From Kiritimatiellia bacterium (lineage in GTDB: Bacteria > Verrucomicrobiota > Kiritimatiellia > CAIQIC01 > Lenti-01), in contig JAFYAC010000057.1 of assembly GCA_017540905.1 (NCBI GenBank), forward strand, positions 1-34,775: a DNA stretch of 34,775 nucleotides. Direction: 5' to 3'. Below, piece by piece: positions 13,803-27,690 of the stretch. Both the position numbers and the translations under genes were made by a program. The stretch's first letter is position 1. Every line of letters starts with the position of its first letter. The notes under the pieces are model-generated. The model did not search any database and was not told the origin of the DNA. It worked only from the letters and a program-made list of their open reading frames with translations.

Positions 13803-16800
13803 ATGAAACCGTTCGCCCGTCATTCCGCGGTGGCCGTTCTCGTTCTCTCCGCGCTGTTCCCTTCCGGCGTGTTCCTTCCTTCCGCGCGGGCGGAGGCCAT
13901 CCTCCAGTGTTTCAACCTGTCGCACAACGAGATCGCCGCGCGCATCCCCGAAATCGCCGAGGCCGGCTACTCCGCCCTCTGGATTCCGCCGCCCACCAAG
14001 GCCAACGGCGGGATGTCCGTCGGCTACGACCTGTACGACCCCTTCGACATCGGCTCGACCGACCTCCGCGGCCAGTACCCCACCCGCTACGGCACCAAGG
14101 CCGACCTGCTCAACCTCATCGATGTCGCCCACCGCTTCGGCATGCGCGTCTATTTCGACAACGTCATGAACCACCGCGCCTACGACGTGCCCGGCTACAA
14201 CGAAAACACGCCCGTCGACGTGTACCCCGGCATGGTCGCCGAGGACTTCCACCTCCGCGTCACGTCAGACGGCCACTACCGCAAGTGGGACAACATCGAC
14301 TGGGACAACTTCTCCGAGTGGGACGTCATGTACCGCCCGCTCTCCGATCTCATCGACATCGCCCACGAGAATCTCAAGAGGGACGGCGACAACCGCCCCT
14401 TCAACGGCAACTTCGGCCCCGGCTACGAGATGGGCCAGTGGTATCCGAAGCCCTACATCGTCCGCCACGCCTACCGCAAGGAGGACACGTGGAAGCTCTT
14501 CGACCGCATGCCGGTCCCCTGGAAGAAGAACGAGGACTACGCCGTCGGCGACGGCGCGCTCCAGGACACAGCCCCCGACAACGGGCGCAACCTCTACACC
14601 GGCTTCGGGAATTCCGCCTGGAACCCGGAAGACCCGGCCACCAAGGCGCTGCTCGAAGAGCACGCGGACTGGTTCGCGGACAACGACGCCGCCAACGGCG
14701 TCTCGATGAAGCTCATCGAAAACTACCCCAATTTCTACAAGGAGAAGGTGGACGACTACCTGAACCGCGCCGTCCGCTGGCTCATCGACACGACCCACGT
14801 GGACGGCCTGCGCCTGGACGCGGTCAAGCATGTGCCGTACGAGTTCTTCGGCGACGCCTACGGGGAGGACAAGGACCGCTCCAGCTACGGCTACATCGGC
14901 CAGGCCCAGTGGCAGTTCAACATGACCCGCGGCTTCAACGACTGGACCAACCACCGCAACACGGTCTTCTCCAACGACGGCCCGCGCGACGACCTGATGG
15001 TCTTCGGCGAGCACCTCGCGGCGCCGCCGGCCCAGGGGCCGTACATCGACGCGGGGATGCGGCTGGTGGACAGCGACCTGCGGTCCGCGCTCGACGACGC
15101 GTTCAAGTTCAACCAGCTCTGGGGATTCGAATGGCCCGGCCATGCGGGCTTCGGCCCGGACCACGGCATCATGCACGCGCAAAGCCACGACGACGACCAC
15201 GTGGACCGCAAGCAGCTCCACCACGCCTACTACTACATGCGGAGCGGCCTCGGCCTCGTCTACACCGACGGCAACAACCGGGCGCCGGAGCTTTCCGGTT
15301 CCGGCGGCGCGTTCCCCCGCTGGGCCTGCACGGACTACCTCGGGCAATGGGGCGAGAGCCAGATTCCGACTCTCCTCAAGGTCCACGAAAACTTCGCGAT
15401 GTACGATGACAAGGCCTGCCCCATCGACTACCAGCCCGGCAACTTCATCGCGTGGGAACGCGGCGGCGGCTGGCCGTGGAACCGGGTGCTGGTCATGTTC
15501 AACTCGCACCGGGACGACGGGCAGACCATCTGGACGGGCGGGAGCTACCCCGACGGCGACTACCTCTACAACTACGCTTCCACCTACCCCGGCTACATGA
15601 CCCACTGGGAGGGCGGGACCGACGACGCCCCCTACGCCACCGCCGGCGACCTGCGCGCGGGCAAGGTCTGGATGCCCAAAAGCAGCTACGCGCTTTGGGG
15701 CTACAAGAACCCCGACCCGAGCGAATACTGGGCCGCCGCCGTCCGCGCCGCCGACTACGCGTCCGGCTGCACCAACACGTCCCGCTCCGGCCTCTCCGAC
15801 GTCATCACCGTGTACGACGACGGCCAGGTCGCGCCCGTCTGCGGCGTCGTGCGCAAGGACGGCGTGGACGGCGACCCCGGCTTCAACCCCAACGGCGTCG
15901 AAGACGCCGACCCGACCGACTTCTCCTACACGATGGCCATTCCCGTCGTCCGCGGAACCAACGTCGCCTTCGGCATCCACCTGGACGGCGAGGCCGAACA
16001 CGTCATGGCGCGCCTCGACGGCGGCATGGATTTCGGCAACGGCATCGACGGCACGCGCAGCGACGTCGAGGGCGATGCGGCCAAGGACTCCCGCGACAAT
16101 CCGCCGGGCGCCGCCCGCGACTGTTTCCTCGGGTTCGAGAACATCGACAGCTATTTCATCCAGCGCACCTGGGCCGAAGTGTTCGCCGCGAAGGACACCC
16201 ACACGACCGACCACGGCTGCGTCCTCCGGAGCGGCGACGCGACCACCTACGAAGTCGCCATCGGCGGCGCAGCCCGGATCTGGACCAATGACTACGGCAT
16301 CGGCCTCAACACGGACCTGAAGAACCCCTCCTTCCTCTACCACGACCCGGAAGGCACGGGAACCTACCGCGACACAACCGCCTCGCCCGCAGCGAAATCC
16401 GCCTCCGTCCCCGCCGCCACCGCGAAGGCTTCCTCCCCCGGCGGGGACGCCCCGTCCCTCTGTGCGTCGGCCAGCTGGATTGGCAAGAGCTACATTTTCG
16501 CCAACGGCTGGTACAAGGGCGACAATGAGTTCAACGACGAATGGGAACCGCTTCCGTTCCACGAAGCGGATTTGGGCACGGTCACCGGCCCCCTCCGTTT
16601 CGGCGGACGCTGCCGGACGTACGGGGAGGAACACGGAGAAGAGAATCCGGCCTACCTCCACTACCAGCTCCTGAACGACACCGACGGGACGACCATCGCG
16701 GCAGGCACCCAGACGCTCTACTGGTATGCCTACAGGGACAACGACAACTGGTTCCGCAGCAGCACGGGCAACCGGGAGGCGGAGCGGATGGCGACCCTCG

Positions 16801-19800
16801 ACCTGGACGGGCTGGAACCCGGAACGAAATGCCGGCTGGCCGTCTGGTTCGAGGCGAAGGGTTCGGACGACTCCTCCGTCTGGGACAACAACGACCAGGC
16901 GAACTACGTGGCGACCTTCACCGTCGGGGCGGACGAGGGGCAGGCGCCTTCGTGGCTCGGCAAGAGCTACATCTACGCCAACGGCTGGTACAAGGGCGAC
17001 GGCGAATCCTACAACGACTGGCTCCCGGACGCGTTCGACGGGGCCGACCTCGGGCGGATCTACGACACCATCGCCTTCGGCGGGCAGTGCCAGACCTTCC
17101 CGATGAGCAAGATCGAGGGACAAGCGCATCCGGCGCGCATCTGCTACAACATCCTTTCCAACGGCACGATTGTCTCAAACGGGACTTGCTCCCTTTCCTG
17201 GTACGACTGGAACCAGACCGGCACCGACAACAACAACTGGTTCGAAAGCCGCAACGGCGAAGGTGCGTGGGAAACGGCGGACATCGACGTGTCCGGCCTC
17301 GCCGACGGCCAATACGAGCTGGCCGTCTGGTTCGAGGCGGACGGAGAGAACGGCCTCATCTACGACCACAATCACGAAGCCAACTACGTGGCGTCGTTCA
17401 CCATCGGCGCCGGTCCCGAGCCCGCCGGGACGGATGTCACGTTCCCGCAGTTCTCCCTCGACGGCGGGCACCCCGTGGTGTACGCGAAGATGGCCCACGG
17501 CAACGGGCTGGCGGCGTGGCTCTACTACACGACCAACGGCGCCTGGCCCAACGGTTGCGCGGGCAAGTCCCCCGACCGCAACGTCTCGGTCGTTCGCGGC
17601 GAATGGGTCGGCAACCAGTGGGAACGGGACGGCACCTCCGGCGAATGGAAGATTTCCGGCGACTGGTGGCGGTTCACGCTCCCCGCGCTCCCCGCCGGCA
17701 CCGTCCTCAAGTACAAGATCGGCGGCGCCGCCCTCCAGGGGGACACGGAGAAAGGCTACCAGGGCTGGGAAACCGTCTGGCCGGGAAGCGCCGACGCCGT
17801 CTGGCGCAAGACCAAGATTACCGGCGAGTGGCGCGTGCCCCGGGAAGGCGGTCTCGACCTGACGAAGCAGCAGTACCACAAGCACCTCGACTATGCTTCC
17901 AAGACGACCGGCTTCGACGAGGGCTTCCACCTCTTCACCGTACGTTGCTGGCCGGACCGCAAAAACGGCGCGGAAATCTTCAACACCTTCCGCCAGACGT
18001 TCTACATGGACCGCGAGACGCCGCACGGCATCCTCCTCTATCCCGCCAAGGACTACGACGAGGTCGGCGGTGCCAGCTACGGGATGAGCGTGCGGACCGA
18101 CCGGACCGTCGAAAAGGTGTACTACCACATCACCGACGCCTCCCCGGCGAACGACGGCCCCGGCAACGGCGTCAACACCAACGGCGCCGTCGAATGGGCC
18201 GAGGCGACCCTGGCGAGCGCCTGGGACGAAGACATGGCAACCAACACGGCGCTCCCGAAGGTGTGGACCTTCAACTACAACGGCGTCGCCCCCAGCAACA
18301 CCCCCGCCACCATCCGGGTCCGCCTCTGGGAGTGGTCCAGCGTCCCCACCAACCGCTGGGACGCCCATAGCCCGACCAACGACAGACCGGAGGCGCTCCA
18401 CGTCACCGAAATCGTTCGCCCGGTCCGCGCCAACGGCGAGACGAAGTACGTCTATTACAGCTGGCCCGAGGCCGACAACGAAATGGTGCAGGCGGGCTGG
18501 AAAGTCTGGGTGCGCTTCTCGGGGAACCTCTTCAACTGGGACATCGACCCGGCCAACCCCGGCAACGTGTATGCCAAGGCCCACGTGTACGTCACGAACA
18601 ACGCCGCCGCCGGGGGCATCGGCGACGAGGTGCACGGCGTGGAATGGAGCGACCTGTCCTGGGCCAGCGGCGGCGAATGCCAGATGGCCTTCGCCATGCC
18701 CAACGTGTATACCCGCGATGACGCCTCCCGCTACCGGCTGACCGTCGCCATCGACACCGACTTCGGCCACGCGGAAGCCTCCCGCACCATCCGCCACAAG
18801 GGGCCCGCGCAGCCGGCGTGCATCATCGCGACGCCACCGGAAACCGACTCCGACGGCGTCAAGTGGGTCATTTCGATGGAGGACGTGCCGCCCGCCGCCC
18901 TCGCCACGAACCAAGCCCTCCGCGAGACGCCCGTCATCGTCCACACGGACCTCTCCGTCACGAACGTCACCGTGCAGTTCACCGGCGCGCCCGACGGCGC
19001 CGCGCCGCGCCTGGAGTCCACGGGCGTCACGACCAACGGCAGCGTCCTCTTCTGGAACTGGGTCTGGACGGTGGACAAGCCGGGAAGCTACGCCTTCACC
19101 GCGACGGCCACCGCGGATCCCGCCCTCGACCCGAAGTTGACGCTGTTCACGAACACCGCCGCGCGCAACGCGACCATCCTCTTCCAGCAGAAGTGCGACA
19201 CCACGGATGCCTCGGACGGCGACTGGGACGACGACGGCATCCCCAACGCCACCGAATTGACCCGGACGCCCCTCCCGACCAGGGGCGACGAGCAGTGGAC
19301 GCAGGACGAGGTCTTCGCCTTCTACGTTTCGGGGCGGACGGACAACGCCTCCCCCGACACCGACGGCGACGGCCTGCCCGACGGCCTCGAACTCGGCGTG
19401 CGCTGGCCCGCGGACGGAACCGACACCCGCACCGACACCAACGGCGACGGATGGCCGAACTTCCTCGCCGACTTCGATCCGCCCTTCTTCAACACGGTGG
19501 ACAACGCGGACAAGGTCCCCGGCGTCTCCGCCAAGGGAACGGGCGCCGACCGCAAGACCATCGTGCTCGGCACCGTCACCGACCCGCGCAACGCGGACAC
19601 GGACTACGACGGCCTGCCCGACGGCGTCGAAGACGCCAACCGCAACGGCTGGGTGGACGGCGACGGCAGTTCCCTGCCTCCCGGCACGCCCCAGGATTAC
19701 AACCGGAACCGCCCCAACGGCCTGGCCGACGGCGGCGAAATCTGGCAGGAGACAAGCCCCAACGTCGCCGACAGCGACGGCGACGGCCTCTCCGACGGCT

Positions 19801-22800
19801 ACGGCGAGGACACCAACCGCAACGGGCGGGTCGACATCTTCCTCAAGTACGAAAACGATGTCCTCGCCGAAGTCAACCTCTCCAGCAATCAGTGGGCCGT
19901 GTACCGTGCGGTCCAGTCCCCGCATTCGCGCGCGGTCAACTGGAAGAAGCTCTTCGACGACTACGCCGTCAATGGCCGGTACGACGGCGAAGTGCAGAAG
20001 AAGAACGGCGGCTGGCCGCACCTGATCGTCACCGAGACCGATCCGCTTTCGAAGGACACCGACGGCGACGGCCTGCCCGACGGCTGGGAAGTCCGCTACG
20101 GCCTCGATCCGCTCGACAACGGCTCGTACAACTTCGCCACGGGGCTCGCGGGCGATCCCGGCAACGGGCCCGACGGCAACCCCGACGAGGACTACCTCGC
20201 CGACGGCACGACGCCCCGCACGAACCTCCTCGAATTCCAGTCCGGCACCAACCCCAAGGTCCCGGACACCGTCGAAAACCCCGGCGGGGAAGGCTCCATC
20301 GTCATCGGCGAGGGCGCGGAAATCGGCCAGGTCAACGAGACGCGCTACCACCGCGAATTCCTCGACTGGACCCTCGGCGACCTGCTCGCTCTCGACAACT
20401 ACAGCCAGGAAGGAAACGTCTCCGACGTCTACCGGAAGTTCAACGACGGCTTCGATTCCTCGCGCGACATCGTCGCCTTCTACTTCCACGACGGCGGCCT
20501 TCCCGAAAAGGGCGGCGACGGCAAGCTCTACTTCCGCGTGGACTTCGACGATCTGGCCGGAGGCGCGGAAAAGGGCCATCTCGACCTCTATGTCGCCATC
20601 AACGTGGGCATCTACGGCGAGGGCGAACTCAACCTGCCCGACAACGTCGACGCCCGCACCGCCATGGGCTGGAACGCGGTCTGCGCGGTGTACGAAAGCG
20701 CCCTCTGCAACCTCATCCTCGACACGGATTCGGAGCACAACACCACGGCCATCGGCCAGAGCTTCGATGGCATGGGCATCGTGACGAACGCGCTGGACGG
20801 GGCGTATTTCAACACCAACCTCGACTGCGTCGCCTGGTCCGTCGACCGCAGCGCCCTCGCGCTCGCCGGCTGGGACGGCGACCCCGACAGCCTTTCCTTC
20901 CAGGTGTACACGACCAAGGACGGCACCCAGAACGATCCCCGCGGCGAAGGCGACAAGAGCGGGCTCAACGACTTCACCGACACCATCGGCGACGACTGGC
21001 TCTGCAGCGACTACGACAACGACGGGAGCTACATCGCCGAACACGGCGTCTATTCCTCCTGCATCGGCCGCACCAAGGGCTGGAACAACCGCGGACGCCA
21101 CGCGAAGCTCGCGCTGGTCGCCCACGGCAACCAGGCCATCGAGGCGGGCAGCACCATCCAGGCCATCGTGGACAACGGCGCGGGCGCGGGCTACCAGCGC
21201 CCCGTCAAGATCCACAACATCTACACCAACTGCCCGCTCAACCTCCACGTCACCCCCACCCTCGCCATGGCGCTCGAATGGGCGAAAACCGGCACGGACA
21301 AGCCATGGTTCTCCGGCCCCGCGCTCAACGCGCAGATCCGCTCCGGCATCGCCGCCGGTTCGCTGAGCCTCCTCGGCAGCACCTATTCCGACCACATCCT
21401 CCCCTACTTCCCGCCGGAGTTCAACCGGGCCAACGTCGCGCTCGCCAACGATGTCCTCGACACCATCTACGGCGGCACGAACGGCGCCCCCGTTGTCTCC
21501 CGCAAGGTCTTCTGGGCGCCGGAACGCGTCGTGGACACGGGCGTCCTTGACCAGATCGGAACGATGGGCTACCAGGCGACGATCGTCGACCAGACGCCCC
21601 ACCTCCTCGACTGGTTCGGCCGCGAAACCGCCCTGGGCGATTCCGGCTACAAGCTCCAGCGCTACTGGCTCGCGGACCAGGGCAAGGAGATGAAGGCGTT
21701 CGTCCTTTCGACCGCCGCCAACGATTCGCGCTACGCGAACACGGACGGCGGGCTGCCCACCGACCTGCGTCACCTCTTCCTGCGCCGCGCGCGCAGCGGA
21801 CAGGCCGCGATTTCCGCCCTGTTCTACATGTGGGAGGAGCTCGCGGGCAACGCCAACGCCGACGCGTACGACCGGAACCTCCGCTGGATCGCGAACCACC
21901 CGTGGATTCAGGTCGTCACGCTCGACCGGGCACTGGAAGACCCCTCCGTTACCAACAACATGTTCTACCCCGACGGTGCGCACAACTTCACCGCCGCGAC
22001 GCCCCTCGAAGCCCACGACTGGGTCCACCACGCCTGCAACGAAAACTACGGCAACTGGTATTACGGGAGCGGCCGCCACGAAGGCCTCGCGGGGAAGACC
22101 AACGAAGTGCGCTACGGGGTCCGGTTGCCCTCCGGGAAACCCTTCGGCACCGTGACCAACGGCATCCTCGCCGATACCTGGGCGACCGTATCCGCCATCT
22201 CCAACCCCGACGTGAAACGCCTCGCCGAAGCGACGCTCTTCGCCAGCGTCTTCGAGACAGCCTTCCACGAGGAAGAGAACGGGAACCTCTCGCGCTGGAG
22301 CTACAACGACTACATCTACCCGGCAACGGGGATGAAGGAAGGCGGCGGCAAGATGGGCCTCCAGTCCTTCTCCTGGCGCGCCCAGTCCCGGACGAGGCTT
22401 GCGAACGTCTACGGCGAGGTGGACGCCTGGGCGGGACGCACGCTGTCGAAGGTGGAAGTCCTGTCGAAGGACGTGGACCTCGACGGCGAAAACGAATGGA
22501 TTCTCCGGAACAACAAGCTGATGGCGCTCTTCGAGGCCGAAGGCGGCCTCATGGTCGGCGCGTGGCTCAAGGATGGTGGCCGCGTCCGGCAGGTCGTCGG
22601 CAACTTCGCCGCCATCCCCGAAAACGGCTACGAGGACGAGGAGAGCGAATTCGTCCGCTACGTGGAATGGGAAGACAAAACCAAACACGGGTACCTCCTC
22701 GCCCAGCGCGGGTCCGCCCTGAAGGACGTCGAGGGCGGTTCGCACACCGGGCTCTACGCGGTTACGAACAGCGCAAACGGCCTCACCTTCTCGCACGGGT

Positions 22801-23882
22801 CGCTCTCGAAGACGGTGACGCTCGCATCCCCCGCCACCAACGCCTTCGCCGTCGCCTACGCGGGTTCCGGCGCACTCAAGGTCCGCTCCGGCCTTTCGCC
22901 GGACCTGGACGCCCTGATGCTCACCGGCCAGGCTAACCTGACCGAAACGGCGGACGGCTCCAAGACCCTCTCCGTCACCACCATCCGTCCCGACGAAGGG
23001 ACCGGCGTGACGGCGACGTTGGCCGTCACCCGCGGTGCCATCGACACATCCGCCACCGACAGGCCGGTCAATGTTCCCGAAGAATTCAACACCGTCAACA
23101 TGCGCAACGCCGCGCACGTCCGGCAGGTGGATGTCACCGGCACCGGCTCGCTCGCCTTCACCCTCGCGTTCTCCGTGGAGAACACGGAAAACCTGCCCCC
23201 GGTCATAACCGTCACCCCCGACCGGAATCCGCAGCTCTTCCCCGTCGGTGCAACGACAAGCTTCACCGTCGACGCGTCCGACCCGGACAGCGCGAACGTA
23301 ACCGTATCGTGCGGCCCGTTGCCGAAAGCGGGCAACACGCTGGCCTCGTTCTCCGGGTCCACGCATGTGTTCTCCTGGACGCCGTCCCCCCTCTCCCAGG
23401 GAACACGCACGGAAGACTTCAAGACGAACGTCACCTTCACCGCGACCGACGGAACCAACACGACCTCGCGGACGGTGAACATCGTCATCCCCTGGGACTC
23501 CGACGGCGACGCCATGCCCGACGACTGGGAGTTCCTGCGGTTCGGGACGCTCGCCCAACACGCCGGCACCGACTGGGACCAAGACGAGTTCCTGGATTGG
23601 AAAGAATACGTCGCGGGAACCTCGCCGATCGACCCCTTCGACTACCTCGGTTGCGAGAGCCTGTTCGTCGACCACGCAGCGAAAACCGCCGAACTGACCT
23701 TCCAGAGCGTCCCGGGAAAGAGCTATGCCATCGAAGCCGCGGAAGGCGGCACCGGCCTGATTGCCTTCGACTGGACGGTGGTGGCGGTCCCGGTCCAGGC
23801 AACCGGCCCGCACACGACGTGGCTGGACACCGACCCCGCCAGCACCACCCGCATGTACCGCATCCGCGTTCTCTTCCCGTAA
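13803..23882 (+). CDS. Giant secreted GH13 alpha-amylase fused to a GH57-like module
   Basis: 3359 residues with a signal peptide (about 1-30). The GH13 barrel (about 31-580) has region I YFDNVMNHR, nucleophile Asp339 in GLRLDAVKH, acid/base Glu403 in VFGEH, and His462/Asp463 in QSHDDDH. Two tandem repeats of about 155 residues follow (891-1203), then a CBM25-like aromatic segment and Ig-like regions. Calcium-binding DxDGDGLPD repeats (about 1800-2155) come next, then a glucodextranase-C-like region (about 2170-2430). A GH57-like part follows (about 2435-2880), with HGNQ, LLGSTYSDHILPYFP and FWAPERV (candidate nucleophile Glu2574). An Ig-like domain, a second calcium-repeat pair (about 3232-3280) and a C-terminal beta domain ending in YRIRVLFP close the protein. 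It should degrade extracellular starch or glycogen. Module borders are by eye. Confidence 0.9.
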   Translation: MKPFARHSAVAVLVLSALFPSGVFLPSARAEAILQCFNLSHNEIAARIPEIAEAGYSALWIPPPTKANGGMSVGYDLYDPFDIGSTDLRGQYPTRYGTKADLLNLIDVAHRFGMRVYFDNVMNHRAYDVPGYNENTPVDVYPGMVAEDFHLRVTSDGHYRKWDNIDWDNFSEWDVMYRPLSDLIDIAHENLKRDGDNRPFNGNFGPGYEMGQWYPKPYIVRHAYRKEDTWKLFDRMPVPWKKNEDYAVGDGALQDTAPDNGRNLYTGFGNSAWNPEDPATKALLEEHADWFADNDAANGVSMKLIENYPNFYKEKVDDYLNRAVRWLIDTTHVDGLRLDAVKHVPYEFFGDAYGEDKDRSSYGYIGQAQWQFNMTRGFNDWTNHRNTVFSNDGPRDDLMVFGEHLAAPPAQGPYIDAGMRLVDSDLRSALDDAFKFNQLWGFEWPGHAGFGPDHGIMHAQSHDDDHVDRKQLHHAYYYMRSGLGLVYTDGNNRAPELSGSGGAFPRWACTDYLGQWGESQIPTLLKVHENFAMYDDKACPIDYQPGNFIAWERGGGWPWNRVLVMFNSHRDDGQTIWTGGSYPDGDYLYNYASTYPGYMTHWEGGTDDAPYATAGDLRAGKVWMPKSSYALWGYKNPDPSEYWAAAVRAADYASGCTNTSRSGLSDVITVYDDGQVAPVCGVVRKDGVDGDPGFNPNGVEDADPTDFSYTMAIPVVRGTNVAFGIHLDGEAEHVMARLDGGMDFGNGIDGTRSDVEGDAAKDSRDNPPGAARDCFLGFENIDSYFIQRTWAEVFAAKDTHTTDHGCVLRSGDATTYEVAIGGAARIWTNDYGIGLNTDLKNPSFLYHDPEGTGTYRDTTASPAAKSASVPAATAKASSPGGDAPSLCASASWIGKSYIFANGWYKGDNEFNDEWEPLPFHEADLGTVTGPLRFGGRCRTYGEEHGEENPAYLHYQLLNDTDGTTIAAGTQTLYWYAYRDNDNWFRSSTGNREAERMATLDLDGLEPGTKCRLAVWFEAKGSDDSSVWDNNDQANYVATFTVGADEGQAPSWLGKSYIYANGWYKGDGESYNDWLPDAFDGADLGRIYDTIAFGGQCQTFPMSKIEGQAHPARICYNILSNGTIVSNGTCSLSWYDWNQTGTDNNNWFESRNGEGAWETADIDVSGLADGQYELAVWFEADGENGLIYDHNHEANYVASFTIGAGPEPAGTDVTFPQFSLDGGHPVVYAKMAHGNGLAAWLYYTTNGAWPNGCAGKSPDRNVSVVRGEWVGNQWERDGTSGEWKISGDWWRFTLPALPAGTVLKYKIGGAALQGDTEKGYQGWETVWPGSADAVWRKTKITGEWRVPREGGLDLTKQQYHKHLDYASKTTGFDEGFHLFTVRCWPDRKNGAEIFNTFRQTFYMDRETPHGILLYPAKDYDEVGGASYGMSVRTDRTVEKVYYHITDASPANDGPGNGVNTNGAVEWAEATLASAWDEDMATNTALPKVWTFNYNGVAPSNTPATIRVRLWEWSSVPTNRWDAHSPTNDRPEALHVTEIVRPVRANGETKYVYYSWPEADNEMVQAGWKVWVRFSGNLFNWDIDPANPGNVYAKAHVYVTNNAAAGGIGDEVHGVEWSDLSWASGGECQMAFAMPNVYTRDDASRYRLTVAIDTDFGHAEASRTIRHKGPAQPACIIATPPETDSDGVKWVISMEDVPPAALATNQALRETPVIVHTDLSVTNVTVQFTGAPDGAAPRLESTGVTTNGSVLFWNWVWTVDKPGSYAFTATATADPALDPKLTLFTNTAARNATILFQQKCDTTDASDGDWDDDGIPNATELTRTPLPTRGDEQWTQDEVFAFYVSGRTDNASPDTDGDGLPDGLELGVRWPADGTDTRTDTNGDGWPNFLADFDPPFFNTVDNADKVPGVSAKGTGADRKTIVLGTVTDPRNADTDYDGLPDGVEDANRNGWVDGDGSSLPPGTPQDYNRNRPNGLADGGEIWQETSPNVADSDGDGLSDGYGEDTNRNGRVDIFLKYENDVLAEVNLSSNQWAVYRAVQSPHSRAVNWKKLFDDYAVNGRYDGEVQKKNGGWPHLIVTETDPLSKDTDGDGLPDGWEVRYGLDPLDNGSYNFATGLAGDPGNGPDGNPDEDYLADGTTPRTNLLEFQSGTNPKVPDTVENPGGEGSIVIGEGAEIGQVNETRYHREFLDWTLGDLLALDNYSQEGNVSDVYRKFNDGFDSSRDIVAFYFHDGGLPEKGGDGKLYFRVDFDDLAGGAEKGHLDLYVAINVGIYGEGELNLPDNVDARTAMGWNAVCAVYESALCNLILDTDSEHNTTAIGQSFDGMGIVTNALDGAYFNTNLDCVAWSVDRSALALAGWDGDPDSLSFQVYTTKDGTQNDPRGEGDKSGLNDFTDTIGDDWLCSDYDNDGSYIAEHGVYSSCIGRTKGWNNRGRHAKLALVAHGNQAIEAGSTIQAIVDNGAGAGYQRPVKIHNIYTNCPLNLHVTPTLAMALEWAKTGTDKPWFSGPALNAQIRSGIAAGSLSLLGSTYSDHILPYFPPEFNRANVALANDVLDTIYGGTNGAPVVSRKVFWAPERVVDTGVLDQIGTMGYQATIVDQTPHLLDWFGRETALGDSGYKLQRYWLADQGKEMKAFVLSTAANDSRYANTDGGLPTDLRHLFLRRARSGQAAISALFYMWEELAGNANADAYDRNLRWIANHPWIQVVTLDRALEDPSVTNNMFYPDGAHNFTAATPLEAHDWVHHACNENYGNWYYGSGRHEGLAGKTNEVRYGVRLPSGKPFGTVTNGILADTWATVSAISNPDVKRLAEATLFASVFETAFHEEENGNLSRWSYNDYIYPATGMKEGGGKMGLQSFSWRAQSRTRLANVYGEVDAWAGRTLSKVEVLSKDVDLDGENEWILRNNKLMALFEAEGGLMVGAWLKDGGRVRQVVGNFAAIPENGYEDEESEFVRYVEWEDKTKHGYLLAQRGSALKDVEGGSHTGLYAVTNSANGLTFSHGSLSKTVTLASPATNAFAVAYAGSGALKVRSGLSPDLDALMLTGQANLTETADGSKTLSVTTIRPDEGTGVTATLAVTRGAIDTSATDRPVNVPEEFNTVNMRNAAHVRQVDVTGTGSLAFTLAFSVENTENLPPVITVTPDRNPQLFPVGATTSFTVDASDPDSANVTVSCGPLPKAGNTLASFSGSTHVFSWTPSPLSQGTRTEDFKTNVTFTATDGTNTTSRTVNIVIPWDSDGDAMPDDWEFLRFGTLAQHAGTDWDQDEFLDWKEYVAGTSPIDPFDYLGCESLFVDHAAKTAELTFQSVPGKSYAIEAAEGGTGLIAFDWTVVAVPVQATGPHTTWLDTDPASTTRMYRIRVLFP
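16473..17411 (+). repeat. Tandem duplicated module inside the giant amylase
   Basis: Residues 891-1046 and 1050-1203 are clear copies. Each begins SW[IL]GKSYI[FY]ANGWYKGD, continues with an ADLG...FGG[RQ]C[RQ]T strand and a DN(D/N)NWF motif, and ends LAVWFEA...ANYVA[ST]FT[IV]GA. The aromatic-rich pattern suggests a carbohydrate-binding or spacer role. I do not recognise a named CBM family. Confidence 0.85.
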
Positions 23883-24039: not shown

Positions 24040-24068
24040 TTGAGCCCCCCACCCTCCTCCGTTAGGAT
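24040..24068 (+). promoter_or_regulatory. Promoter of the second amylase gene, apparently leaderless
   Basis: TTGAGC (24040-24045), a 17-nt spacer and TAGGAT (24063-24068). The -10 ends 7 nt before ATG 24076, so the transcript would start at or next to the start codon. No Shine-Dalgarno sequence fits this ATG. Confidence 0.55.
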
Positions 24069-24075
24069 GCGTCCC

Positions 24076-27000
24076 ATGAACGCATCATTCGTCCTCCACC
24101 GTTCCCGCTCCGTTTTGCTCGCGCTCTTCTGCCTCGCCGCAGCCGTCCCCCTTCCCTCCCTCGCCGCCAAGTCCACCCGTCCCGGAATGGGCGCCGTCCC
24201 CTACGCCGACGCGAAGGGCACCGGCACCACCTTCCGCGTGTGGGCCGGCGCCGCCAAGAAGGTCGAAGTCGCCGGCGACTTCAACGGATGGGGCCGCACC
24301 GCCCTCTCCTCCGAAGGCAACGGCATCTGGTCCGTGGACGTCCCCGGCGCGGGCCACGGGCAGAAGTACAAATTCATCCTCGACGGCGTCAACTGGCGCA
24401 AGGATCCGCGCGCCGTCCGCGTCTACTCCTCGGCCACCGACGCCGACTGCTTCATCTACGACCACTCCCTCTTCGACTGGGAAGGCGCCGAGCATGTCGT
24501 GGGAGGCACGGAAGGCTACCCCTGCATCTGGCGCAACGACCTCGTCGTCTACGAAATGCACGTCGGCTCCTTCAACGGCGAGGACTGGCTGCCATCGACC
24601 TTCGACGAAGCCATCGAGAAGATCCCGCACCTCAAGCACCTGGGCATATCCGCCGTCGAACTGATGCCGGTCGCCGAGTTCGCGGGCGACCGCTCGTGGG
24701 GGTACAATCCGGCCGACCTCTTCGCGCCCGAGTCGAGCCTCGGCGGCGCCGACGGCTTCAAGCGCTTCGTGAAGGCGTGCCACAAGGCGGGCATCGCGGT
24801 CATCGTCGACGTCGTCCACAACCACTACGGCCCGACCGACCTCGCCATCTGGCAGTTCGACGGCGCCGGCCCCAACGGCGGCATGTACTTCTACGACGAC
24901 GACCGCCGCTACACCGACTGGGGCGAGACCCGTCCCGACTACGGCAACACCAACGTCGCCGCCTTCGTCCGCGACCAGATCTTCTCGCTCGTCGAGGACT
25001 ACCACGTCGACGGCTTCCGCTGGGACAGCGTCTTCAACATCGCCTACTACGGCGGCTACAACCAGAATGCCGAAGGCGTCGCCCTGCTGGACGCCATCAA
25101 CACCGAGCTCAAGGACCGCTATCCCGACGTCTTCCGCATCGCCGAAGACAACGCCTTCGACGCGAACATGAACTTCGAGGCCCAGTGGCACCACGGCTCC
25201 CTCAACGACCTCCGCGCCCTCGCGACGGCATCGAGCGACTCCGACCGCAACATGGACGCCGTCGCCTACTACCTCATCGACCCCAACAACGTCGGCCTCC
25301 ACCAGGTCGTCTACGCCGAGAGCCACGACTCCTGCGGCGACCTCAACAACAAGCACCGCCTGCCGCGCGAAATCGACGGCGGCTCCCCGCAAGGCTACTG
25401 GGCCAAGAAGCGCGCCTTCCTGGCGAACGCCGTCGCCCTCGTCTCGCCGGGCATCCCCATGCTCTTCATGGGCAGCGAATACAACGAAGACTGGGACTTC
25501 TCCAACGACCACTCCCTCCGCTGGACCGGCCTCGCCGAAGAAAACGCCGGCATCGTCCAGATGTACGCCGACCTCATCGCCCTCCGCCGCAACGCCAAGG
25601 GCGTCACCGGCGCCCTCCGCGAGACCGGCAACGCCGCCTGGACCGTCCTCAACAACGACGGCAAGGTCGTCGCCGTCGCGCGCGGCGGCGGCCTCCTCCT
25701 CGTCTTCAACTGGAGCGCCACCGCCTACAAGCCCTACGACACCCTCAAATTCCCCGTCAAAGGCACCTGGCACTGCCTCTACAACTCCGACTCCCGCGCC
25801 TACGACCGCTCCTTCGGCGACGTCGGCCCCGCCGTCGGCGACACCGTGTCCGTCGGCGACACCCACATCTCCGCCGTCCCCCTCGGCGCCTACTCCCTCC
25901 AGGTCTGGGGCACCGCTCCCCTCCCCGCCGACGCCGCCGTCGCCTTCGACCCGCCCCTCCCCGACGGCTGCACGAACGTCACCATCGCCTTCGACCCCGG
26001 CGACGGCGCCCTCGCCGACGCCGACCCCGTCTACGCCCTCGTCGCCCCCAACGGCGATTGGTCCGAGACGAACGTCCTCACCCTCCCCATGGCCCGCGCC
26101 GGCTGCGGCGCCCAATGGACCTGCACCCTCGCCATCCCCGACGGAACCACCGCCCTCCACGTCTGCTTCCACGACCAAACCAAAACCCGTTGGGAAAACA
26201 ACTCCGGCGACAACTGGCTCTGCCCCGTCGCCAACTGCGGCGACCTCCCTTCCGCCGTCACCGCCACCCCCGCCCGCCCCACCGACGGCAGCACCTTCCG
26301 CCTGACCTACGAAGTCAACGCCGGCCCCCTCACCAACCGCCCCGCCGGCGCCGGCATCACCGCCCACGTCGGCTTCAACGGATGGTCCACATCCCGCGAC
26401 ATCCCCATGACCAACACCACCGGCGACCTCTGGGCGTGCGACGTCGAAATCCCGCTCGGCACCTGGTACATCCCCGTCTGCTTCTACTCCGGCGAAGGCG
26501 CCGACTCCGTCTGGGACAACAACAACGAAAAGAACTGGACCATCGCCGTCGCCATCGAAGACACTACCCCAGTGCCCGGCTTCGCCATTACAACCCCTTC
26601 GGCCTCCCCCGTCACCATCTCCAACGCCGCCGTCGCCGTCGCCGGAACCTCCACCAACTTCGTGGGCCCCCTCCTCTGGACCAACGACGCCAACGCCTCC
26701 GCCGCCACCCTCCTGCCCGGCGCCACCTGGACCGCCGACATCCCCCTCGCCCACGGCACCAACGTCATCCACTTCATCGCCCTCAACCCCAACGACGGCG
26801 CCGCCGACTCCGACTACACCGACTTCCATACCGGCGCCAACGGCGGCCATGGCTTCGCCCCTTGGGAGCTCGACATTCCCTCCGCCAACGCTGGCGTCTT
26901 CACCTCCGCCGCCGACGGCTGGGGCTTCTGGGCCAACTCCGGCGCCATGGTCGAAGCCACGCGCCCCTTCATCCACCCCCTCCAGCCGGGCGACACCGTC

Positions 27001-27690
27001 ACCTTCGGCATCCGCAACGGCTACATCGACGAAGGCGGCTCCGTCGGCTTCGGCTTCCGCAACGCCCACGGCCAGACCGCCCTCGAATGGTACTTCCAGG
27101 GCGGCACCGACGGCTACACCCTCAACGCCGCCGCCCGCACCACCAACGCCCTCCCCTTCACCGACCGCCTCCAGCGCATCGCCTTCACCCTGGGCCCCGA
27201 CTGGACCTACACCCTCTCCGTGGGCACCAACACCTGGACCGGGAACCTCAAGAACGCCAGCGTCGAGCGCATCGCCGCCGTCCGCTTCTGGAACTACACC
27301 GCCGGCGGCGGCTCCGACCACAATTTCTATGTCACCGACCTGGCCGTCACCTCCACCAACCCCCGCCTCGCCCCCGAACTCGCCCAGACCCTCACTGTCG
27401 TCCTCCCCGGCGCCCCGCCCCCCGTCATCATCACCCCCACCGCCGCAACCGTCGCCACCGACCCCGCCACCGGCGCCCCCCTCCTGACCGCCACCCTCGA
27501 CGCCGACGCCCCCGCCGCCCTCGCCGATTCCATCTGGTACGCCGTCGCCCTCGACCCCGAAACCCACACCTGGAACTGGATCCCCCTCCCCACCGCCAAC
27601 GTCACCCTCACCGGCTCCACCGTCACCCTCCGCTGCCCCGACCTCCCCACCGCCATCTACTCCCTCGGCAACCCACCCACCATCCCCTGA
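24076..27690 (+). CDS. Secreted CBM48-GH13 amylase/branching-like enzyme with starch-binding modules
   Basis: 1204 residues with a signal peptide (about 1-30). CBM48-type domain (about 45-125; FRVWAGAAKKVEVAGDFNGW) is followed by a GH13 barrel (about 150-560) with region I VIVDVVHNHYG, nucleophile Asp317 in GFRWDSV, acid/base Glu357 in RIAEDN, and His417/Asp418 in ESHDS. The C-terminal beta domain ends near 618. Two CBM25-like modules follow (about 623-720 and 730-830), each closing with a W-[ED]-N-N...NW motif, then a glucodextranase-B/Ig-like domain (about 835-925), a jelly-roll-like domain (about 925-1105) and a final beta domain. The CBM48-GH13 order resembles branching enzymes and malto-oligosyl trehalohydrolases, but the protein is exported, so a depolymerase or debranching role is likelier. 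ATG 24076 gives the cleanest signal peptide; ATG 24067 is an alternative. It follows the giant amylase by 193 nt. Confidence 0.92.
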   Translation: MNASFVLHRSRSVLLALFCLAAAVPLPSLAAKSTRPGMGAVPYADAKGTGTTFRVWAGAAKKVEVAGDFNGWGRTALSSEGNGIWSVDVPGAGHGQKYKFILDGVNWRKDPRAVRVYSSATDADCFIYDHSLFDWEGAEHVVGGTEGYPCIWRNDLVVYEMHVGSFNGEDWLPSTFDEAIEKIPHLKHLGISAVELMPVAEFAGDRSWGYNPADLFAPESSLGGADGFKRFVKACHKAGIAVIVDVVHNHYGPTDLAIWQFDGAGPNGGMYFYDDDRRYTDWGETRPDYGNTNVAAFVRDQIFSLVEDYHVDGFRWDSVFNIAYYGGYNQNAEGVALLDAINTELKDRYPDVFRIAEDNAFDANMNFEAQWHHGSLNDLRALATASSDSDRNMDAVAYYLIDPNNVGLHQVVYAESHDSCGDLNNKHRLPREIDGGSPQGYWAKKRAFLANAVALVSPGIPMLFMGSEYNEDWDFSNDHSLRWTGLAEENAGIVQMYADLIALRRNAKGVTGALRETGNAAWTVLNNDGKVVAVARGGGLLLVFNWSATAYKPYDTLKFPVKGTWHCLYNSDSRAYDRSFGDVGPAVGDTVSVGDTHISAVPLGAYSLQVWGTAPLPADAAVAFDPPLPDGCTNVTIAFDPGDGALADADPVYALVAPNGDWSETNVLTLPMARAGCGAQWTCTLAIPDGTTALHVCFHDQTKTRWENNSGDNWLCPVANCGDLPSAVTATPARPTDGSTFRLTYEVNAGPLTNRPAGAGITAHVGFNGWSTSRDIPMTNTTGDLWACDVEIPLGTWYIPVCFYSGEGADSVWDNNNEKNWTIAVAIEDTTPVPGFAITTPSASPVTISNAAVAVAGTSTNFVGPLLWTNDANASAATLLPGATWTADIPLAHGTNVIHFIALNPNDGAADSDYTDFHTGANGGHGFAPWELDIPSANAGVFTSAADGWGFWANSGAMVEATRPFIHPLQPGDTVTFGIRNGYIDEGGSVGFGFRNAHGQTALEWYFQGGTDGYTLNAAARTTNALPFTDRLQRIAFTLGPDWTYTLSVGTNTWTGNLKNASVERIAAVRFWNYTAGGGSDHNFYVTDLAVTSTNPRLAPELAQTLTVVLPGAPPPVIITPTAATVATDPATGAPLLTATLDADAPAALADSIWYAVALDPETHTWNWIPLPTANVTLTGSTVTLRCPDLPTAIYSLGNPPTIP

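Follow-up and report, generated by a model that had tools for sequence, protein, structure and literature searches.

A GH13 alpha-amylase module and a GH57-like module on one long chain in Verrucomicrobiota, the latter lacking the canonical proton donor in one clade

The window analyzed here is a stretch of 34,775 nucleotides from a Kiritimatiellia bacterium (GenBank assembly GCA_017540905.1, contig JAFYAC010000057.1, positions 1 to 34,775; contig C84 of the draft genome). A single uninterrupted open reading frame (ORF) at 13803-23882 (+) encodes a fusion protein of 3359 amino acids (aa) carrying a GH13 module and a GH57-like module, as identified from the ORF listing, Pfam and co-linear homologues. 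The two main alpha-amylase families, GH13 and GH57, have unrelated structures. An earlier note on this DNA had placed motifs of both families on one chain; the frame is indeed continuous, the motifs lie where they had been located, and Pfam matched GH13 and GH57, both above their gathering scores, together with bacterial TSP3 repeats. The ATG is preceded by a Shine-Dalgarno-like AGGAAGGAG (by eye), and residues 1-30 (13803-13892, +) resemble a signal peptide in the translation, also by eye, so that the two modules would be secreted on one chain. We put at close to even the probability that the product is a secreted two-module alpha-glucan-degrading enzyme whose C-terminal block acts, in the window's clade, without the canonical strand-7 Asp. 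The GH13 module would then cleave internal alpha-1,4 bonds of starch or glycogen, and the C-terminal block would bind the same polymer and act as a retaining (trans)glycosidase.

The source draft is fragmented (3.5 Mb in 178 contigs, 84% complete), which might favor an assembly or frame artefact. The same module order, however, recurs co-linearly in two paralogues of the same genome (C114, 3156 aa, and C38, 3168 aa; lengths from listed starts) and in 60 ORFs among the matches listed, including one of Cerasicoccus arenae KCTC 12870. Because these homologues share the frame, the artefact is rejected as exceedingly improbable.

The GH13 module spans residues 31-585 (13893-15557, +) and was delineated from its PF00128 match (54.6 bits against a curated cut-off of 22; E 1.4e-14), from profile comparison with solved alpha-amylases, which were the best matches of this part (top 1mwo, E 6e-34), and from its catalytic triad. 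NCBIfam amylase equivalog models gave only matches far below their cut-offs. Alignment and motif positions identify the nucleophile as Asp339 (14817-14819, +), the acid/base as Glu403 (15009-15011, +) and the third acid as Asp463 (15189-15191, +), in agreement with the complete set of GH13 acids claimed earlier. The triad was intact in 19/19 sequences of a first set and then, among the matches listed, in 56/56 (the window protein plus 55 of the 60 fused ORFs). Similarity to the solved enzymes suggests a (beta/alpha)8 barrel. The sequence gives good support for an enzyme that degrades alpha-glucans and has one complete GH13 site.

The C-terminal block comprises a GH57-like (beta/alpha)7 barrel with a helical region (residues 2434-2882; 21102-22448, +). 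GH57-type motifs occur at residues 2441-2444 (HGNQ), 2523-2537 (LLGSTYSDHILPYFP) and 2570-2576 (FWAPERV), the candidate motifs HGNQ, GSTYSDH and WAPERV of the five conserved GH57 regions being recognized by eye. PF03065 (GH57) scored 28.0 bits (E 1.7e-6; curated cut-off 21.2) over residues 2508-2605, inside the region of about 2435-2720 where such a match had been anticipated. At E<=0.01 it also recognized 24 of 26 relatives of the domain; in a further set of five it matched two and missed three (the fused L152 and the stand-alone L074 and L155) at E<=1. The C-terminal region is predicted to fold into the incomplete (beta/alpha)7 barrel typical of GH57, again as expected in the earlier note. 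VIA-align scored GH57 alpha-glucan enzymes at 28.1 and GH38 at 14.9; GH38 also ranked high for the C-terminal model in Foldseek, where TM-scores against 1k1x were low (0.27/0.39, rmsd 12.9) when the entire multi-domain model served as the query. Since a profile of the block gave only weak matches to PDB sequences (the best, E 0.0032, being to the GH57 protein 7e1y) and the hhalign comparison with the canonical GH57 of the same genome was likewise weak (E 0.057), we base the family assignment on Pfam and the predicted fold. A different polymeric substrate for both modules, neither starch nor glycogen but, for example, another alpha-linked glycan, is quite unlikely given that alpha-amylases are the best matches of the GH13 part, that GH57 alpha-glucan enzymes score far better than GH38 in VIA-align, and that some gene neighbors are of amylase type.

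Two further domains flank the barrel. Residues 2165-2430 (20295-21092, +) form a beta-sandwich resembling, by predicted structure alone, the C-terminal domain of glucodextranase (PDB 1ug9) and a domain of the starch-binding Sas6 (PDB 7uww); no sequence-level match of this domain to either protein was found. Residues 2883-3127 (22449-23183, +) form a super-beta-sandwich that resembles the C-terminal part of 4-alpha-glucanotransferase, 1k1x aligning as far as model residue 960; in a weak alignment, DVDLDGENE of the protein faces DVDFDGRAE of 1k1w.

According to PMC6037648, GH57 enzymes rely for catalysis on Glu at strand 4 together with Asp at strand 7. Alignment and model place the nucleophile of the window protein at Glu2574 (21522-21524, +), which is model residue 410, directly after strand 401-406, and is a Glu in all 70 aligned sequences (the window protein plus 69 of 79 ORFs, ten incomplete ones being left out). 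The canonical proton-donor position, at the end of strand 7 (model strand 506-512), is instead occupied by Met2676 (21828-21830, +); this position was assigned solely from the alignment, from the order of the strands and from the D-x-E-x-F motif, which we take to mark the GH57 proton donor. The earlier note had overlooked Met2676 and treated both modules as ordinary active enzymes. The GH57 residue set is incomplete, and strand-7 Asp was found in none of the 33 sequences of the window's clade, as delimited in a quick maximum-likelihood tree with the catalytic columns excluded. The claim of two ordinary active enzymes is therefore unsupported in that form and the second active site putative, the canonical donor being missing in the whole sampled clade, and since the defining strand-7 Asp was looked for and is lacking, the domain is named GH57-like rather than a complete GH57.

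Across the 70 sequences, the strand-7 position carried Asp in 26 and one of ten other residue types in 44 (M 11, N 11, H 7, S 4, R 3, W 3, A 2, and P, Q and G), and the tree required five changes at this position, at least four of them on well-supported branches. Asp was present in the four planctomycete stand-alone proteins and in L152, a fused protein from a Verrucomicrobiia metagenome-assembled genome (MAG). Five stand-alone GH57-like proteins of 1.15-1.24 thousand aa (L074-L077 and L080) are paralogous to the fused module and possess both Glu and Asp. Because relatives within the window's class encode five stand-alone paralogues that all have Asp here (FDDWEAF or FDDWEAL), its loss within the fused proteins is the likelier direction on this midpoint-drawn tree.

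The rest of the GH57 pocket is nearly invariant in the 33-sequence acid-less clade. With the acid absent and the pocket conserved, the GH57 part therefore has either a displaced acid or the role of a glucan-holding pseudoenzyme. The proton donor of the Kiritimatiellae-side clade would, in the first case, be another conserved acid, for which Asp2648, Asp2596 and Asp2690 are candidates; Asp2648 (21744-21746, +), proposed from its conservation, is Asp in 32/33 sequences of the clade and in 26/26 of the D-bearing ones, and is also present in stand-alone relatives. In the second case, which we consider a real possibility though one short of even, GH13 alone would cut, and the Sas6-like and GH57-like block would serve only to hold or unwind the glucan and to anchor the enzyme to it. 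The number of residue types that replace the strand-7 acid, the complete loss of that acid in the window's clade, and the structural likeness of the adjoining domain to Sas6 all speak for such a pseudoenzyme, as do the GH57 'like' groups without one or both catalytic residues that are reported in PMC6037648. Yet the nucleophile has been preserved through several losses of the acid, the pocket of the acid-less clade is at least as strict as that of the D-bearing set (a comparison that is not like for like, the latter being more diverse), and, against the same-genus counterpart of the window, dN/dS was nearly equal in GH57 (0.24) and GH13 (0.23; dS 0.28 and 0.10, respectively). Because the nucleophile is kept through repeated acid loss and selection is purifying, a displaced acid is slightly favored over a mere binder.

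Several observations weigh against a two-module alpha-glucan-degrading enzyme with an active C-terminal block. The canonical donor is missing and the acids that might replace it are candidates only; conservation of the pocket is equally expected of a glucan-binding pseudoenzyme; and dN/dS measured against a second genome was 0.40 in GH57, a little above the 0.34 of GH13. Nor is the alpha-glucan neighborhood universal. In a survey of 79 neighborhood sources (the window plus 78 listed loci; homologues counted at E<=1e-8), the gene directly downstream of the fusion (24040-27690, +), which encodes a branching-enzyme-like protein with CBM48, GH13, alpha-amylase C and CBM53 domains, was strongly matched only at L081, of the same genus, and partly at L146; an 854-aa GH13 protein and a GH31 protein found beside the C. 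arenae fusion were matched in 2/79 and 1/79 sources, respectively; and at L140 and L125 the adjoining genes that were scanned are not of amylase type, comprising MgtE, nitronate monooxygenase, an H+-pyrophosphatase and one ORF that Pfam did not match.

Searches recovered the GH57-like domain from 28 of 57 relatives and from 31 of 288 genomes taken evenly across the phylum, the window's own genome being counted in both. In the 288-genome sample, 36 of 50 match rows lay in frames of 2574-3383 aa, frame length rather than GH13 being scored. In the stretches drawn from the first search, that of the 57 relatives, there were 36 GH57-like ORFs, 28 of which matched GH13 as well; three of the remaining eight are truncated where a stretch or contig ends, and five stand alone. 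A search of named genomes, covering the best 80 of 116 relatives, yielded at least 78 loci, some on contigs shared with the first search, which span Kiritimatiellae, Opitutia, Verrucomicrobiae, Spartobacteria, Lentisphaerae-labelled MAGs, Planctomycetota and Sumerlaeia. Among the matches listed, 60 of 79 GH57-like ORFs had GH13 on the same frame, 52 with both modules near full length; the remaining 19 comprised 11 that begin at a contig edge, three interrupted by frame breaks, GH13 lying in an upstream frame (L089, L101 and L122), and five stand-alone ORFs from Planctomycetota and Sumerlaeia (L150 and L155-L158). An apparent 26,627-aa frame in a relative (L073, G020:C61) was dismissed as an artefact, 72,000 of 80,708 bases being masked as N. 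In a Planctomycetota sample, 16 of 198 genomes matched, eight of them weakly and partially; each of the eight strongly matching genomes has two copies, none in a frame longer than 1572 aa. Since the sampled planctomycete frames are short and the fused frames occur in Verrucomicrobiota, the GH13-GH57-like fusion is, within the genomes sampled, a Verrucomicrobiota trait.

No description of a GH13-GH57 fusion, or of GH57 in these phyla, was found among the listed matches in open PMC titles and the beginnings of abstracts, and the word 'fusion' is absent from the main text of PMC6037648, which leaves one Opitutaceae GH57 sequence on a separate, unclassified branch. The single-chain architecture appears undescribed, yet it is widespread. 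If the conserved single chain is what it seems, it would give Verrucomicrobiota a distinctive means of handling alpha-glucans, and the repeated loss of the donor, with the nucleophile kept in all sequences examined, makes the source of the acid in an incomplete GH57, or its acid-less role, a testable question. A bicatalytic amylase widespread in one phylum, with a relocated acid/base and hence a new catalytic layout in the GH57 site of one large clade, is a tentative prospect, on the doubtful side.

Other C. arenae neighbors recurred more often among the 79 sources. In that species the genes around the fusion are those for a GH13 protein, a LacI regulator, a 1019-aa product, another GH13 protein that bears Malt_amylase_C, and a GH31 protein; LacI was found in 14 sources and the Malt_amylase_C GH13 in 10. 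The 1019-aa ORF (L128:12574-15630) had no Pfam match at E<=1e-5; its alignment displays, by eye, the GH13-like motifs MLDAPFNHT, GIDGLRCDFGQG, SESLDGG and SHDE with apparent catalytic acids, and homologues of about 1.0-1.3 thousand aa are the downstream partner in 22/79 sources among the matches listed. This group is possibly an undescribed GH13 branch. A GH13 search of the window's genome returned 17 match rows, some paired in one gene and some in the fusions themselves. The same genome encodes a 1539-aa GH57 + CBM53 + CBM25 protein (L079, 380-4999, -), secreted-looking by eye. Elsewhere in the window lie genes for an indigoidine synthase A-like protein (PF04227; 7987-9339, +), a putative neutral zinc metallopeptidase (PF04228; 12695-13582, -) and an SNF2-type helicase (PF00176; 28736-33160, +).

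Between the enzyme modules, motif positions define two tandem Trp-rich modules (residues ~891-1044 and ~1050-1202; 16473-17408, +) carrying SWIGKSYIFANGWYKG and SWLGKSYIYANGWYKG, the second module matching the first copy of L046 at 47.6% (query residues 2-62); the C38 paralogue has, by eye, a different module at this place. An Ig-like beta-sandwich chain, conserved in the family, follows (residues 1205-1830; 17415-19292, +), for which no specific structural match was found. TSP3-type DxDGDG repeats, recognized by PF18884 and the motif list, occupy residues ~1807-2090 (19221-20072, +). The calcium-binding repeats previously proposed as the spacer are thus present but confined to this part, much of the spacer being Ig-like.

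With respect to known systems, the GH13 part shares a complete triad with the solved alpha-amylases 1mwo, 3qgv and 3bc9 (profile E 6e-34 to 4e-32), chains of 435-599 aa that are far shorter than the 3359-aa fusion. The likeness of the domain before the barrel to Sas6 (7uww, CBM74 type) and glucodextranase (1ug9) is structural, and starch binding by it is putative. TreS-Mak and GlgB-MalQ fusions are mentioned in passages of PMC11046441, none of those seen naming a GH13-GH57 fusion. The GH57 'like' proteins of PMC6037648 have an incomplete catalytic set, as does the window protein, but their groups average 443-728 aa and are thus far shorter chains. The GH57 4-alpha-glucanotransferase of Thermococcus litoralis (1k1w/1k1x) stands at 14% identity and differs in that the window protein is devoid of the proton donor and is a chain of 3.4 thousand aa with a GH13 module and a Sas6-like domain.
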